A DNA stretch of 64,000 bases from Pseudomonadota bacterium (GTDB taxonomy: Bacteria; Pseudomonadota; Gammaproteobacteria; Burkholderiales; Burkholderiaceae_C): NCBI GenBank assembly GCA_020161145.1, contig JAIUPQ010000005.1, positions 1-64,000 on the forward strand. Reading direction: 5' to 3'. Positions 16,839 to 40,223 of this stretch are shown piece after piece; the first letter of the stretch is position 1; each line of letters opens with the position of its first letter. The notes under the pieces were generated by a model. That model saw nothing but the letters and a program-made list of their open reading frames with translations. It did no database searches and had not been told where the DNA came from. The position numbers and the translations under genes were made by a program.

Positions 16839-16910
16839 GATCCGGCTTCGCCGGTCCACTGCTGAAGCCCCCTCGGGGGGCAGCGACCGGGAGGGAGCGT
16901 GGGGGCCTAA
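16839..16910. repeat. Intergenic palindromic repeat, copy 1, at the 3' end of the POT transporter gene
   Basis: The element runs GATCCGGCTTCGCCGGTCC, a short spacer, then CCCCCTCGGGGGG, CAGCGAC, GGGAGG, AGCGTGGGGGCCTAA. Copy 2 (37513-37583, next to cysD) has the same modules in the same order. The terminal CTA is the stop codon (TAG) of the minus-strand transporter gene, and cysD ends in the same way in copy 2. Confidence 0.8.
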
Positions 16911-33739: not shown

Positions 33740-35479
33740 TCAGCGTGTGGTGAACGGGAAGAACACCGGCACCGCCACCAGGCACACCGCCATGAATACC
33801 AGTGCCAGCGGCACACCGGCGCGCAGGTAGTCGGCCAGCGTGTAGCGCCCCGGGCTCATCACCATCAGATTGGTCTGGTAACCGTAGGGTGTGGAAAAAC
33901 TGCAACTGGCGCCGTAGAGCACGGCCATGACGAAGGGCATGGGACCCAGCCCCATTTGTTCAGCCACGCCCAGCGCCACCGGAAAGGTCAGCGCGGCGGC
34001 GGCGTTGTTGCTCATCAGCTCGGTCATGATCCAGGTCACCAGCAGCACCAGGGCCAGCGCGGCGTAAGGCCCCCAGGCCACGCCGCCGGCCAGCAGCGCG
34101 CCGGCCAGCACCTTGGCCGTGCCGGTGGCCATCATCACGTCCGAAATCACCAGCGCCGAGGCGATGATGAGGATGATGTCGTAAGGCATGTGCCGCCGCA
34201 GCTCGGCCGGCTTGACCAGCCGCAAGGCGAGAAAGACCGCCAGCAGCACCAGCAGGCCTTTGAGAAAACTCAGCACGCCCAGCGCCGACAGGCCGATGAC
34301 GGCGACGAAACCAGCCAGCGCGAGGTTGGCCTTGCGCGGATCGATGAACTTTTGCACCTGGCGTTCGGAGACGACGACGAAGTTGCGGCTGAGGTTGTTG
34401 CGGGTCTGGAAGTCCTGGCCGGTGACCAGCACCAGCGCATCGCCCACCTCCAGCCGGATGGAGCCCAGCGAGCCGCCCAGCCGCTCGCCGCCCCGGCGCA
34501 CGGCGACCACGGCGGCGTCGAACTGGGCGCGAAAGTCCACCTCGCGCAAGGTCTGTCGCGCCAGCGTGGACTGGGCGGAAATCACCACCTCCACCAGGTT
34601 GTCCAGTGGCAGGTCGCGGTCGTGGCCCACGGTGTGCAGGCCAGGAAAGCGCGCCAGCAGATCGATGCGGGTGACGTCGCCGGTGAAGACCAGCTCGTCA
34701 CCGGCCTGGATGAAGCGGTCGGGCTCCACCGGGGCGATGACGTGGTCGCCGCGCACGATCTCGGTCAGGAACAGATGGCCCAGGTTGCGCAAGCCGGCCT
34801 CTTCCACGGTTTTGCCGATCAGCGGCGAGCCCTCGCGCACCTGGGCCTCCACGAAGTAATCGGCCGCGCTCTCGGGCTCGGTGGGATGGTCTTTGAGCAG
34901 ATGCGGGTAGAGCAGCCACATGGTCAGTCCGCCCGCCAGCAGCAGCAGGCCGCCCACCGGCAGCAGGTCGAACATCTTGAGCTCGGGCAACTGGCTGCCG
35001 ATCAGAAAGCTGTTGACCAGCAGGTTGGTAGAGGTGCCCACCAGCGTCAGCGTGCCGCCGATGGTGGCGGCAAAACACATGGGCAGCAGCACGCGCGAGG
35101 CCGCGTGATGCGGGTTGCCGCGCAGTGGCCCCATCAGCGAGGCCACCACGGCGGTGTTGTTCAGAAAGGCCGAGTAGATGGCGGTGGTGAAGTACAGCTT
35201 GGTCAGCGCCCACCGGTAGGGGCCGCGCACGAGCTTGTCGGCCATGGTCTCCAGCAGGCGGGACTTGTCCAGCACCACGGACAGCAGCATCAGCACCACC
35301 ACGGTGATGAGGCCGTTGTTGGTCAGGTGTTTGAGGCTGGTGTCCAGGCTGGTGAAGCCCAGCAGGATGAAGGCGAAGGCCGTGCCGCTGAAGATGGCGG
35401 CGGGCGCCCAGCGCCCCCGCACCAGCATGACGACCAGGCCGAGCAGTCCGGTGAGGACGACGATCTGCTGCCAAGACAT
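33740..35479 (-). CDS. SLC13-type permease with two TrkA-C domains, probable sulfate transporter
   Basis: A 579-residue inner-membrane protein. An N-terminal SLC13/ArsB-like helical half (about 1-200, with FLNNTAVVASLMGPL and GTSTNLLVNSF) is followed by two cytosolic TrkA-C (RCK-C) domains (about 205-370: VREGSPLIGKTVEEAGLRNL; VDFRAQFDAAVVAVRRGGER) and a second helical half with MTELMSNNAAAALTFPVAL. The start at 35479 has AGGAG eight bases upstream. This architecture matches SAC1/SLT-like sulfate permeases. Its place right after cysNC supports sulfate uptake (inference). A terminator separates it from cysNC. Confidence 0.85.
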   Translation of the reverse strand: MSWQQIVVLTGLLGLVVMLVRGRWAPAAIFSGTAFAFILLGFTSLDTSLKHLTNNGLITVVVLMLLSVVLDKSRLLETMADKLVRGPYRWALTKLYFTTAIYSAFLNNTAVVASLMGPLRGNPHHAASRVLLPMCFAATIGGTLTLVGTSTNLLVNSFLIGSQLPELKMFDLLPVGGLLLLAGGLTMWLLYPHLLKDHPTEPESAADYFVEAQVREGSPLIGKTVEEAGLRNLGHLFLTEIVRGDHVIAPVEPDRFIQAGDELVFTGDVTRIDLLARFPGLHTVGHDRDLPLDNLVEVVISAQSTLARQTLREVDFRAQFDAAVVAVRRGGERLGGSLGSIRLEVGDALVLVTGQDFQTRNNLSRNFVVVSERQVQKFIDPRKANLALAGFVAVIGLSALGVLSFLKGLLVLLAVFLALRLVKPAELRRHMPYDIILIIASALVISDVMMATGTAKVLAGALLAGGVAWGPYAALALVLLVTWIMTELMSNNAAAALTFPVALGVAEQMGLGPMPFVMAVLYGASCSFSTPYGYQTNLMVMSPGRYTLADYLRAGVPLALVFMAVCLVAVPVFFPFTTR

Positions 35480-35511
35480 GGGCGGCACTCCTGAGGTCAA
35501 TTCCAAGGGGC

Positions 35512-35563: not shown

Positions 35564-37468
35564 TCAGTCGATGATGCCCAGCACCTTGAGGCGGGCGATC
35601 ACCTTGTCGGCTGCCTGCTCGGCCGTGCACTGCGTGGTGTCCACCCGCAGCTCGGGGTTCTCGGGCGCCTCATAGGGGCTGGAGATGCCGGTGAAGTTGG
35701 CGATCTCGCCGCGGCGGGCCTTTTTGTACAGGCCTTTGACGTCGCGGTCCTCGGCCACGGCCAGCGGCGTGTCCACGTGCACCTCGATGAACTCGCCTTC
35801 CTCCAGCATCGTGCGCGCCATGCCGCGCTCGGCGCGGAAGGGCGAGATGAAGGCCGTCAACACGACCAGGCCGGCGTCCACCATCAGCTTGGACACCTCG
35901 GCGACGCGGCGGATGTTCTCCACACGGTCGGCCTCGGTGAAGCCCAGATCCTTGTTCAGGCCGTGGCGGATGTTGTCGCCGTCCAGCAGGTAGGTGTGGC
36001 GACCGGCAGCGTGCAGCTTCTTTTCCACCAGGTTGGCGATGGTGGACTTGCCGGCGCCCGACAGGCCCGTGAACCACAGCACGGCCGGCTTCTGGCCCTT
36101 GGTGATGCCGCGCGCAGCCTTGTCCACGTCCACATGCTGCATGTGGATGTTGTGCGAGCGGCGCAGCGCAAAGTGCAGCATGCCGGCGCCGACGGTGTTG
36201 TTGGTCAGCCGGTTGATGAGGATGAAGCCGCCGGTGTCGCGGTTGGTCTTGTAGGCGTCGAAGGCAATGGGCCGGTCCAGCGCCAGATTGACCACGCCGA
36301 TTTCATTGAGCTCCAGCTGCTTGGCGGCCAGGTGCTCCATGGTGTTGACGTTGACCTTGTACTTGGGCTCGGTCACCGTGGCCGAAACGGTCTGGGTGCC
36401 GATCTTCAGCAGGTAAGGGCGGCCCGGCAGCAGCGGCTCGTCGTGCATCCAGACGACGGTGGCCTCGAACTGGTCGGCCACTTCGGCAGGGCTGTCGGTG
36501 CCCGAGATGATGTCGCCGCGCGAGATGTCGATCTCGTCTTCCAGCGTGATGGTCACGCTCTCGCCGGCCACGGCCTGCGGGCGGTCGCCGTGGACGGTGA
36601 CGATGCGCGCCACGGTGCTCTCGCGGCCCGAGGGCTGGGCGCGGATGCGGTCACCGGGCTTGACGACGCCGCTGGCGACCACGCCGCAGAACCCGCGAAA
36701 GTCCAGGTTGGGGCGGTTGACCCACTGCACCGGCAGGCGGAAGGCTTCTTTTTGCAGCCGGGTTTCGTCGATCTCGCAGGTCTCGAGAAAGCCCATCAGC
36801 GTCGGGCCGTGGTACCACGGTGTCTTCTCGCTGGGCTCGATCATGTTGTCGCCCTTGAGGCCCGACAACGGAATCGAGGTGATGTCCTCGAGGCCGATCT
36901 GCTTGGCGAACGCGCGGTACTCCTCGTCGATCTTCTTGAACGTGGCCTGCGAGTAGTCCACCAGGTCCATCTTGTTGATGGCCAGCACCACCTTGCGAAT
37001 GCCGATCAGGCTGACCAGGTAGCTGTGGCGGCGCGTCTGCGTCAGCACGCCTTTGCGCGCGTCGATCAGGATGACCGCCACGTCGGCCGTGGAGGCGCCG
37101 GTGATCATGTTGCGCGTGTACTGCTCGTGGCCCGGGGTGTCGGCCACGATGAACTTGCGCCGGTCGGTCGAGAAGTAGCGGTAGGCCACGTCGATGGTGA
37201 TGCCTTGCTCGCGCTCGGCCGCCAGGCCGTCCACCAGCAGCGCAAAGTCGATGTCGCCGCCCTGGGTGCCGAACTTCTTGGAGTCGTTCTCGATGGCGGC
37301 GAGCTGGTCTTCGAAGAGCATCTTCGATTCGTACAGCAGCCGGCCGATGACGGTGGACTTGCCGTCGTCCACCGAGCCGCAGGTGATGAAGCGCAGCAGC
37401 GATTTCTTCTCGTGCTGCTGCAGATACTGTTCGATGTCAGCCGAAATCAGGTCCGATACGTGGGCCAT
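35564..37468 (-). CDS. cysNC: Bifunctional sulfate adenylyltransferase subunit 1 / adenylylsulfate kinase (CysNC)
   Basis: A 634-residue fusion of two sulfate-activation enzymes. The N-terminal CysN GTPase has GSVDDGKST (about 31-39), DTPGHEQY (about 109-116), NKMDLV (about 164) and beta-barrel domains to about 440. The C-terminal APS kinase has P-loop GLSGAGKST (about 464-472) and [15 protein letters not shown]. With CysD it makes APS using GTP hydrolysis, and the kinase part makes PAPS. It lies 111 bases downstream of cysD, with an intergenic repeat between, and ends in a strong terminator. Confidence 0.96.
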
Positions 37469-37512: not shown

Positions 37513-37583
37513 AATCCGGCTTCGCCGGTTCGTCGCAACGCGCCCCCTCGGGGGGCAGCGACGGGAGGAGCGTGGGGGCCTAA
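37513..37583. repeat. Intergenic palindromic repeat, copy 2, at the 3' end of cysD
   Basis: The modules are AATCCGGCTTCGCCGGTTCG, then CCCCCTCGGGGGG, CAGCGAC, GGGAGG, AGCGTGGGGGCCTAA. They are the same as copy 1 at 16839-16910, in the same order and orientation relative to the neighbouring gene. The CTA at 37580-37582 is the stop codon of cysD. Confidence 0.8.
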
Positions 37584-38479
37584 AAATACCCTTCCTGCTT
37601 CTTCTTCTCCATCGAGGCGGCCGTGTCGTGGTCAATCATGCGGCCCTGGCGCTCGCTGGTCTTGGTCAGCAGCATCTCCTGGATGATGGCCGTCAGGCTG
37701 TCGGCCTCGGACTCGACGGCGCCCGACAGCGGGTAGCAGCCCAGCGTGCGAAAGCGCACCTTCTTCATCATCGGCACCTCGCCGTCGCGCAGCGGAAAGC
37801 GGTCGTCGTCCACCATGATCAGCGTGCCGTCACGGTCCACCACCGGGCGCTCGGCCGCGAAGTACAGCGGCACGATGGGCACGTTCTCCAGCAGGATGTA
37901 CTGCCAGATGTCCAGCTCGGTCCAGTTGGAAATCGGGAAGACGCGGATGGACTCGCCTTTTTGCTTGCGGCCGTTGTAGAGGCGCCAGAGTTCGGGGCGC
38001 TGGTTCTTCGGATCCCAGCGGTGCTGGGCCGAGCGGAACGAGAAGATGCGCTCCTTGGCGCGGCTCTTTTCCTCATCGCGGCGGGCGCCGCCGAAGGCCA
38101 CGTCAAAGCCGTATTTGTCCAGCGCCTGCTTGAGGCCTTGCGTCTTCCACATGTCGGTGTGGATCTGCGAGCCGTGCTCAAAGGGGTTGACGCCCATGGC
38201 CTGGGCTTCGGGGTTGTGATAGACCAGCAAGTCCATGCCCAGCTCTTTGGCCATGCGATCGCGCATCTCGTACATGGCGCGGAACTTCCACGTCGTGTCC
38301 ACGTGCAGCAGCGGGAACGGCGGCGGCGACGGGAAGAAGGCCTTCTTCGCCAGATGCAGCATCACCGCCGAGTCCTTGCCAATGGAGTACAGCATCACCG
38401 GGTTGTCGGCCTCGGCGACGACTTCGCGCATGATGTGGATGCTCTCGGCCTCCAGGCGCTGCAAGTGGGTCAGGTTCAT
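37580..38479 (-). CDS. cysD: Sulfate adenylyltransferase subunit 2 (CysD)
   Basis: Read from the internal ATG at 38479, the protein is 299 residues, the normal CysD length. It starts [20 protein letters not shown] and has the PP-loop of ATP pyrophosphatases ([16 protein letters not shown], about 28-43), [20 protein letters not shown] (about 127-146) and the C-terminal GRMIDHD and KKKQEGYF. It forms APS from sulfate and ATP together with CysN. The Shine-Dalgarno before 38479 is weak (GGAA), and the frame remains open for 293 codons upstream (see next entry), so a fused product starting at 39358 is possible. The stop lies in an intergenic repeat. Confidence 0.95.
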
Positions 38480-39358
38480 GGTGGGTTCCGTTGTGAGTGG
38501 AGCAGGTGAAAGGGAAGTGAATCGGGGGAGGGGTGGCGCCGGCACATCGTCGGCCAGCGGCGGCGGCGCCAGGGGCGGTGGCTCGGCGGCGCGTCGCGCC
38601 GTGGGGGCCAGCGGGCAGTGCGCCAGCGTCAGTTGGGGATGTTCAGCCAGCCATGTTGTCACACGCGGCGCACGGCGCAAATCAGGCCCATGCAGAAAGA
38701 GCTGCCAGGACGCGGCATTGTTGGCAACGACCGCATCCAGCAAGGCCAGCGCCCCGGCCTCGGTGGCCAGATGGGGCACCGGCAACCAGCCCACGTCACC
38801 GCGTGGCGACTGCACCACCCACAGCCCGGCCGGCGCCGCCAGATCCGGGTGGGACAGCGCGCCGGCGCGCAGCAGGCGGGCGCCGCTGCTGCGGGCCACC
38901 GCCAGTGCAGGGCGCCAGACCGCGTCCAGCCAGGCACGGGCGGCGGGGGCGGTCTTGGCCTGGTTGAGCGGGCTTTGCAGCGCCAGCCCCCAGCGCTCCA
39001 GCAGCCGCGTGGTGGTGCGGGCGTCGAGTTGAATCCCGTGCCGGTCGGCGGCCAGGGCCTGTACGTGTTGGCGCTGCCACAAGCCGCCACCAGGCGGCGG
39101 TTGGGTCAGCGCCTGCCAACGCAGCAAGGCCTCTTGCGTGGCCGACAGCGCCCGGCCTTGGCCGACCGGGCGGCCACGCTCGGCCACCGCCACGGCCTGC
39201 CAGCCACCCGTCTTGAACGCCTGATAGGCCTTGATGATGGTCGGCACCGACAGGCCCGTGGCGGCACGCACCTGCGCCAGACTGTGCCCGTCCACCCGCA
39301 GCTGCACCGCGCGCAGACGGCGCGCGTTCAGTGTGGCAAGCTCACGGGTGACCGGCAT
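38480..39358 (-). CDS. Transposase-derived (IS630-like) DNA-binding domain, in frame with cysD and without its own stop
   Basis: From an ATG at 39358 the frame encodes 293 residues that run straight into CysD. A helix-turn-helix (about 13-55: [20 protein letters not shown]), [18 protein letters not shown] (about 64-82) and a second winged-helix-like part (about 95-130: [20 protein letters not shown]) follow the order of IS630-family transposases. The RNase H-like region (about 140-260) is recognisable ([33 protein letters not shown]), but LHGP stands where the LDNA motif with the catalytic Asp is expected, and the final acidic segment is replaced by a Pro/Ala-rich linker. Excision activity is therefore unlikely. 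It may be a domesticated regulator or a CysD extension. Start-site Shine-Dalgarno is weak. Confidence 0.6.
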
Positions 39359-39390
39359 TTCAATCGAGACACAAAATGTTTAAGCATCAG

Positions 39391-39415
39391 ATTGTGCCAT
39401 GGTGCCGGGCACAAT
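39391..39415. promoter_or_regulatory. Dyad-symmetric operator candidate between cysD-side and cysQ genes
   Basis: ATTGTGCC (39391-39398) and GGCACAAT (39408-39415) form a perfect 8-bp inverted repeat with a 9-base spacer. It lies in the 85-base gap between the divergent starts at 39358 and 39444. The spacing and position suit a dimeric regulator, such as CysB-like factors or the adjacent helix-turn-helix protein. Which protein binds is unknown. Confidence 0.45.
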
Positions 39416-39443: not shown

Positions 39444-40223
39444 ATGACCTCGACCACTCTTGCCGCGCCCGCCCTGCTCGATGCCCTGGTGCCGCTGATC
39501 CGCGACGCTGGCCGCGTCATCATGGACATCTACGCCACCGACTTCGATGTCACGCAAAAAGGCGATGACTCCCCGGTGACCCAGGCCGATCAGCGCGCCG
39601 AGGACGTGATCCTGGCCGGCCTGGCCCAGATCGCCCCGGGCGTGCCGGTGGTGGCCGAAGAGGCGGTGGCGGCGGGCAAGATCCCGGTGGTGGCCGAGCG
39701 CTTCTTCCTGGTCGATCCGCTGGATGGCACCAAGGAGTTCATCAGCCGCAACGGCGAGTTCACGGTCAACATCGCCCTGATCGAACAGGGCCGGCCCGTG
39801 CTGGGGCTGGTCTATGCGCCCGCCATCGGCCGCCTCTTTGGTGGCGTGGCCGGTCACGGCGCCTGGCTGGAAGAGGACGGCAAAGGCCGCCGTGCCATCC
39901 AGGCCCGCCAGGAGCCGGTCGCCGGCCTGACGGTGGTGGCCAGCCGCTCGCATGGCGACGAGACGGCGCTGGACGCCTTCCTGGCCGGGCGCAAGGTGGC
40001 CTCGCGCACCAACGCCGGCTCGTCGCTGAAGCTGTGCCTGGTGGCCGCCGGTGAGGCCGACGTCTATCCGCGCCTGGGCCGCACCATGGAGTGGGACATC
40101 GCCGCCGGTGACGCCGTGCTGCGCGCCGCCGGCGGCAAGGTGGTGGTGGTGGCCGACGGCCACGACCTGGGCTATGGCAAGCCCGGCTGGGACAACCCGC
40201 ATTTCGCGGCCTGGGGTGCCTGA
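39444..40223 (+). CDS. cysQ: 3'(2'),5'-bisphosphate nucleotidase CysQ
   Basis: A 259-residue inositol-monophosphatase-fold enzyme. Metal-binding motifs are GDDSPVTQADQRAEDVI (about 35-51), EE in VVAEEAV (about 70), DPLDGTKEF (about 90-98) and EWDIAAGDAVLRAAGG (about 216-231). It removes the 3'-phosphate of PAP/PAPS, the by-product of PAPS-dependent reactions. Start at 39444 gives MTSTTLAAPALL; an ATG at 39399 lies within the dyad and would add 15 residues. It is divergent from the cysD unit and followed after 21 bases by kpsC. Confidence 0.93.
   Translation: MTSTTLAAPALLDALVPLIRDAGRVIMDIYATDFDVTQKGDDSPVTQADQRAEDVILAGLAQIAPGVPVVAEEAVAAGKIPVVAERFFLVDPLDGTKEFISRNGEFTVNIALIEQGRPVLGLVYAPAIGRLFGGVAGHGAWLEEDGKGRRAIQARQEPVAGLTVVASRSHGDETALDAFLAGRKVASRTNAGSSLKLCLVAAGEADVYPRLGRTMEWDIAAGDAVLRAAGGKVVVVADGHDLGYGKPGWDNPHFAAWGA

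Follow-up and report, generated by a model that had tools for sequence, protein, structure and literature searches.

The locus described here raises the question of why the reading frame of a cysD gene stays open far upstream of its usual start, and of what the additional part of the protein may do. It lies in a stretch of 64,000 nucleotides that was analysed as a whole (the window), and the open frame was found on the minus strand at 37580..39358, from an ATG at 39358 to a stop at 37582-37580. This frame encodes 592 aa and has zero internal stops over its 592 codons; the initial annotation had claimed that no stop codon separates an N-terminal extension from CysD, and this was borne out, with the CysD methionine at residue 294. 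The CysD part (37580..38479, minus strand, residues 294-592) retains its own ATG at 38479-38477 and is complete, matching its family over the full length. Residues 289-592 matched NCBIfam NF009214/PRK12563 at 550 bits (cut-off 413), and the curated cut-off of TIGR02039 was also exceeded (498.6 bits vs 396.6). The CysD family models (TIGR02039, NF009214) comprise about 300 residues and no DNA-binding domain, whereas the window protein adds a predicted one in front.

Like a bacterial sulfate adenylyltransferase small subunit, CysD is whole here and the gene for CysN-APS kinase (cysNC; 35564..37468, minus strand) adjoins it downstream. This gene is followed on the same strand by a CitMHS/TrkA_C permease gene (33740..35506), which we take to be of the SLC13 type. 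Upstream of the fusion, a divergent gene on the plus strand (39444..40223, start picked by eye) encodes an Inositol_P family phosphatase, presumably CysQ-like. The cysD-cysNC gap contains the inverted-repeat sequence CCCCCCGAGGGGGC (37541-37555), and a second copy with one mismatch is found at 16866-16880 (0.07 matches expected).

The extension (38480..39358, minus strand, residues 1-293) begins with a first helix-turn-helix (HTH; 39206..39346, minus strand, residues 5-51), in which TGLSVPTI was invariant in the 18 rows of alignment A3. An RGRP motif, which is GRPR-like (39167..39178, minus strand, residues 61-64), stands between this and a winged HTH (38993..39142, minus strand, residues 73-122; Pfam HTH_33 at 91-136). 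There follow a predicted RNase H-like fold that has lost its catalytic acids (38615..38878, minus strand, residues 161-248) and a Pro/Ala-rich linker of low pLDDT (38480..38590, minus strand, residues 257-293), which is variable in length, yet in frame at 19/19 betaproteobacterial loci. HTH_33 scored above its Pfam cut-off (30 vs 25 bits), four further HTH families matched, each below its own cut-off, and residues 13-145 matched the IS630 transposase model NF033545 at 52 bits, under the 100-bit cut-off. An AlphaFold model of the extension, built from 19 sequences (mean pLDDT 87), placed an HTH at 5-51, a low-confidence RGRP stretch at 61-67, a winged HTH at 73-122, an RNase H-like b-b-b-a-b-a-b unit at 161-248 and a low-confidence tail. 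A model of the whole fusion (mean pLDDT 58.5) was good for the extension only and poor in the CysD half. Thus the Pfam match and the model agreed with the order of elements given by the initial annotation, and HTH_33, the sub-threshold NF033545 match and the predicted fold support the IS630-type origin that it had proposed.

Its further claim, that the catalytic residues are lost, also held when the extension was compared with two intact IS630 proteins, L238 of the IS1471 family and L015. WGDE is replaced by RAGAL, LDN by LHG, and the NPxE stretch is missing, so that all three catalytic regions are altered or absent. No DDE_3 domain was detected by Pfam in the extension at E up to 1, nor in four of its relatives that were scanned, while both intact proteins contain it. 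The IS630 transposases, represented by the IS1471 family on the Achromobacter plasmid pEST4011, have the same order of HTH, GRP-type motif, winged HTH and RNase H-like part, and the extension is 34.6% identical to that transposase over residues 7-162; it differs from them in having lost the catalytic residues and DDE_3, and in being tied to cysD. A Foldseek search with the extension model gave no PDB match at E <= 0.001. The top match was TnsB (7svw; E 3e-3, probability 0.69), retroviral integrase cores had probability 1.00 at E about 1e-2, and Mos1 (3hos) had E 1e-2 and probability 0.54; the same list also holds many reverse-transcriptase chains and one pantothenate kinase. These matches agree weakly with the predicted fold class.

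The initial annotation had advised a survey of cysD loci in related genomes. The extension was matched in 26 genomes among 100 relatives, and in 15/16 genomes of the window's genus, 14 of them over most of its length. All 14 full same-genus loci (L001-L014, the window included) have it in one frame with cysD. With CysD as query the same 15 genomes were found to have this CysD, each in a frame within the range 534-1072 aa; in G002 only query residues 211-280 of the extension are readable in the CysD frame, and in the sixteenth genome (G009) there was no match to the extension or to this CysD. An assembly error or a chance open frame was ruled out, as every one of the 15 same-genus genomes that have this CysD shows the fused frame. 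Named genomes were scanned as well and contributed 18 loci, of which 16 are betaproteobacterial and fused (Ideonella species, Scleromatobacter humisilvae and metagenome bins) and two are from Marinomonas, one fused and one, in M. pollencensis, separate. Since 11 of the 16 duplicate same-genus loci, five are additional, all five fused, and the distinct betaproteobacterial loci number 14 + 5 = 19, every one of them open in frame. Two different fusions (L040 and L042) were seen in one metagenome bin, SH_71_45, which may be a mixed bin or contain two copies.

GTDB places the classic betaproteobacteria in one order of the class Gammaproteobacteria, and the families f185, f198, f211 and f190 are called gammaproteobacterial here in the sense that they share the GTDB class of the window, not its order. 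When 369 genomes of the class were searched, the extension profile had matches at E <= 1e-6 in 20, six of which, that of the window among them, have the extension together with cysD. CysD was found at E <= 1e-60 in 63 of the 369 genomes (69 places), and in the flanks of 54 of these places, inspected over 1.5 to about 4 kb, the extension stood beside cysD in those same six genomes only. In f185 the extension is present in 42/48 genomes and fused in 41/42, comprising 30/30 loci first fetched, 10/11 further loci and that of G357; the single locus not counted is cut by a contig end. The fused form was also found in two f198 genomes and one Marinomonas. In f211, 20/151 genomes match the extension. 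All 16 strong hits (E <= 5e-56) are separate genes that precede a cysD of the same orientation; the distance is mostly no more than 100 bases, but amounts to 0.4 and 0.6 kb in two cases. In Marinomonas pollencensis the extension is likewise encoded by an independent gene, which precedes cysD and is read in the same direction. A third arrangement was seen in two f185 species (L115:5160-5459 and L234), in which the HTH and RGRP motif alone are fused to CysD. Two genomes have, in addition to the extension-bearing cysD, a second cysD without the extension, at G257:C4 (L105) and G463:C1 1725892-1726785 (L121). Plasmid records matched the extension in 36 cases, all under 60% identity and one covering at least 80%; the annotated ones among the 20 listed are IS630 transposases and the rest are unannotated, and with an f185 extension as query no plasmid record was matched.

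The beta, f185, f198, f211 and Marinomonas loci rule out a restriction to one genus. The association described here as new is far wider than that, and it exists as a fusion, as a separate gene and as an HTH-only fusion. As the fused frame is repeated in the same-genus, beta and gamma loci, the in-frame join of extension and CysD is not accidental; it is confirmed as real, conserved and more than chance. The existence of separate genes suggests that regulation does not depend on fusion, and the HTH-only fusions suggest that CysD can replace the RNase H-like part, perhaps as an oligomerising or sensing unit.

We consider, with moderate confidence, that the extension is a domesticated IS630-type repressor, catalytically dead, whose fusion to CysD makes an autoregulatory trigger enzyme. 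An IS630-type transposase would have lost catalysis, taken on the control of the cysD-cysNC sulfate-activation operon as its dedicated regulator and been fused in frame to CysD. The HTH-RGRP-winged HTH part may bind an AT-rich, partly palindromic site of the TAAAN2-3TTTA type, located where transcription of its own operon presumably starts and, in several species, also before a TauE/SafE sulfur-transporter gene. CysD assembly with CysNC, or occupancy by substrate or APS, would set the amount of the free DNA-binding form, and whenever a sufficient amount of ATP sulfurylase stands idle the trigger enzyme would repress its own genes. In this account, production of the long protein, its binding to DNA, repression and sensing are our inferences. 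The arrangement is shared by many relatives and by some bacteria further away, which points to a role of the enzyme in switching its own genes. The direct regulatory link that the initial annotation had envisaged is plausible, and the enzyme and a predicted DNA-binding domain do share one conserved open frame.

Control of sulfate assimilation is usually ascribed to stand-alone regulators such as CysB. Domesticated IS630/Tc1 DNA-binding domains are a known kind, and so are enzymes that act as repressors; PutA and BirA belong to the latter and are other enzymes with other DNA-binding folds than the CysD fusion. PAX proteins are animal transcription factors and are not known to be fused to an enzyme. 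Their paired domain is an HTH-GRPR-HTH module of transposase type used in regulation, and the extension has a similar predicted module. A paired domain and GRPR motif are described for IS630-Tc1-mariner transposases, and the motif is held to mediate TA target binding (PMC8533490). PutA and BirA are described as metabolic enzymes that are transcriptional repressors of their own pathway's operon, and by analogy the CysD fusion would share this principle (PMC6978683). An ATP sulfurylase subunit with such a domain was not found among the matches listed, by title and abstract opening, in the open-licence literature on CysD/sulfate adenylyltransferase, trigger enzymes and transposase-derived factors.

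The translation starts bear on whether the regulator and the enzyme are one protein. It is well within possibility, though on balance we doubt it, that one frame yields two products; translation of CysD would then begin mainly at its own ATG (38479), and the regulator would be a minor long form or a cut-off extension. The usual CysD start is kept in 19/19 betas. Of the 19 beta extension starts (median pairing 0.4 kcal/mol), 15 lack Shine-Dalgarno pairing (-0.1 kcal/mol or weaker), which favours two products, and the median pairing with the 16S end is -3.5 kcal/mol at the CysD ATG and -3.0 at other in-frame ATGs of the betas. Good pairing at the CysD ATG was found in L007 (-7.6), L010 (-5.0) and L012 (-8.2 kcal/mol), and a separate CysD from its own ATG is possible in the betas. 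The separate genes of f211 and M. pollencensis point in the same direction. In f185 the usual start is lost in 28 of the 40 loci parsed (42 given), and in 26 of these 28 an alternative ATG or GTG is found 8-44 codons further upstream, inside the linker. Against two separate products stands the retention of the frame, which they would not need: the HTH-to-CysD distance takes 16 values in the 19 beta loci and 29 in the 40 f185 loci, and is always in frame. Moreover, in L115 and L234 the stretch from HTH to CysD lacks both ATG and GTG and contains just a TTG, so that in these two loci at least CysD is most simply read as part of a long protein.

In the aligned beta promoters a -10-like box is followed by CCCCTAAAACATTTATTGAC or variants, and this element lies between the box and the extension start. 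In the window the box is TGGCACAAT (39391..39399, minus strand), read by eye as conserved in alignment A6, and a consensus scan gave no sigma-70 promoter in this region. The candidate operator is TTAAACATTTTGTGTC (39368..39383, minus strand), the only place in its own genome at up to 2 mismatches, and the reversed control of this site had no place there. The element is AT-rich, partly palindromic and nearly private to the extension-cysD promoter in the genomes searched. At <=1 mismatch its pattern has 14 places in the 16 same-genus genomes, against 2 for the reversed control; 11 lie before extension-cysD and three (G005, G010, G014) before one PF01925 TauE/SafE gene. In G000, G003 and G007 the element departs from the pattern, and in G002 and G009 this search did not find it. 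In L040-L044 it is a palindrome or near-palindrome, CACTAAATGTTTTAGTG or CACTAAATCATTTAGTG; the palindrome has one place in the Scleromatobacter genome and zero in three Ideonella genomes, and its reversed control has one, in one of these three. An inverted-repeat test with 60 simulations for each of 16 promoters gave no simulation reaching the observed value in four (L040, L042, L043, L044). In L001 three of 60 reached it, for a different repeat that overlaps the -10-like box, and in the other 11 promoters 8 to 49 of 60 did so.

A looser pattern, TAAAN2-3TTTA, was picked after inspection of the data. It was found in 15/18 beta windows (expected 0.0; L009 is omitted from the 19 loci), 20/30 f185 windows (expected 1.2) and 3/16 f211 windows (expected 0.4; up to 3 by chance), and in 0/2 Marinomonas and 0/2 f198 windows; these element counts overstate the evidence, because relatives are not independent. 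In f185 promoters fetched later it was present in 3/11 (expected 0.3), and the window's own site is one base off it. None of the 23 regions parsed upstream of extension-less cysD (24 given), which need not be operon promoters, contained it (expected 0.2). The beta-derived matrix was significant in 6/30 f185 and 2/16 f211 windows and non-significant in 24/30 and 14/16, so the idea of one operator for all lineages is supported only partly. Upstream of the extension in L143, L145, L147 and L148, TAAA[A/G]GTTT and AAACTTTTATAG were observed, inverted and about 62 bases apart, rather like transposon ends. A conserved promoter element, described here as new, accompanies the extension-cysD association.

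This element may belong to another factor, for example CysB, with the extension not being the binder. Such a reading is favoured by the poor transfer of the element to the f211, Marinomonas and f198 promoters, but it seems unlikely to us, since the element occurs at one or two places per searched genome, unlike the sites of a general sulfur regulator, since the 23 regions parsed before extension-less cysD are devoid of the loose motif, and since its position at the presumed transcription start is the place of a repressor.

The TauE/SafE gene is present in 14/16 same-genus genomes. The cysD-promoter matrix beat all 200 simulations upstream of it in 6/14 genomes, including that of the window (G000:C9), with the match in the opposite orientation each time. 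In the other 8/14 upstream regions the element was not found with this matrix.

Selection on the extension was estimated by Nei-Gojobori dN/dS in 10 beta pairs, eight excluding and two including the window copy. In the eight pairs the values were 0.02-0.26 for the HTH, 0.07-0.40 for the winged HTH, 0.21-0.55 for the RNase H-like part, 0.31-0.86 for the linker (7 pairs; one without change) and 0.02-0.13 for CysD. In the two window pairs they were 0.33 and 0.50, 0.57 and 0.71, 0.90 and 0.62, 0.45 and 0.60, and 0.13 and 0.18, respectively. The extension thus appears, from these substitution patterns, to be under purifying selection, and because of the higher values in its two pairs selection looks weaker on the window's own copy. 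The initial annotation had named stops in relatives and dN/dS near 1 as signs against it. The outcome is mostly in its favour: all 19 beta loci are open and the HTH values are low in the eight pairs that exclude the window. The values for the RNase H-like part of the window copy (0.90, 0.62) speak against the repressor reading.

We find it quite improbable that the extension is a non-regulatory add-on serving oligomerisation, stability or the tethering of the enzyme to DNA. Retention of the RNase H-like fold without catalytic residues would fit such a role, but among the parts of the extension the HTH gave the lowest dN/dS in 6/8 pairs (one tie, one reversal), the separate-gene form cannot tether CysD, and the HTH-only form does without the RNase H-like part. 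That the extension is a decaying insertion-sequence remnant reading into cysD by chance can hardly be credited: the transposase-like sequence, the lost catalysis and the weaker selection on the window copy favour it, but a frame that is open in 19/19 beta and 40/40 parsed f185 loci and apparently under purifying selection contradicts it.

A wider proposal that includes the repressor reading is put forward tentatively, as a little short of an even chance. ATP sulfurylase would itself be the sulfur sensor, in which a PAX-like, IS630-derived paired domain makes CysD an autorepressor whose DNA binding is tied to the state of CysNC assembly or substrate. Its regulon would be very small (the cysD operon and the TauE/SafE transporter), the link would have persisted in the form of a fusion, a neighbouring gene or an HTH alone, and the operon would have moved between proteobacterial lineages. 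If true, the enzyme of the first step of sulfate assimilation would be linked directly to a promoter, and there would be a bacterial parallel to the animal paired domain. The natural series of separate gene, fusion and HTH-only fusion would allow the path from transposase to regulator to be studied, and the system offers one definite candidate operator, a further candidate target gene (TauE/SafE) and a natural short form.

The history of the operon was followed in a rapidly built tree, which comprises 135 CysD sequences (61 with a fused, 16 with an adjacent and 58 with no extension, L245 of G002 being scored as without because its HTH is unreadable). The extension labels need 9 changes on this tree, against a shuffled mean of 54.8. 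The fused betas and f185 fall in one 63-row group (support 83) with 5 rows without the extension, and the adjacent f211 genes, Marinomonas and f198 in a neighbouring 26-row group (support 93) with 7 without. The window CysD shares 83-89% identity with its counterparts in G249, G361, G257, G461 and G463, which belong to other orders, and 47-73% with the CysDs of its own order found outside its genus. In f190 (L102 and L103, from G249 and G361) CysD is nested in the Ideonella clade and has no extension; this nesting makes at least one transfer of the operon between lineages probable, and f190 is perhaps a natural case of extension loss after transfer. The f190 operon reads cysD-cysNC-TauE/SafE-like gene, the last recognised by eye, and the place of this gene behind cysNC is an independent hint that it belongs with the cysD operon.
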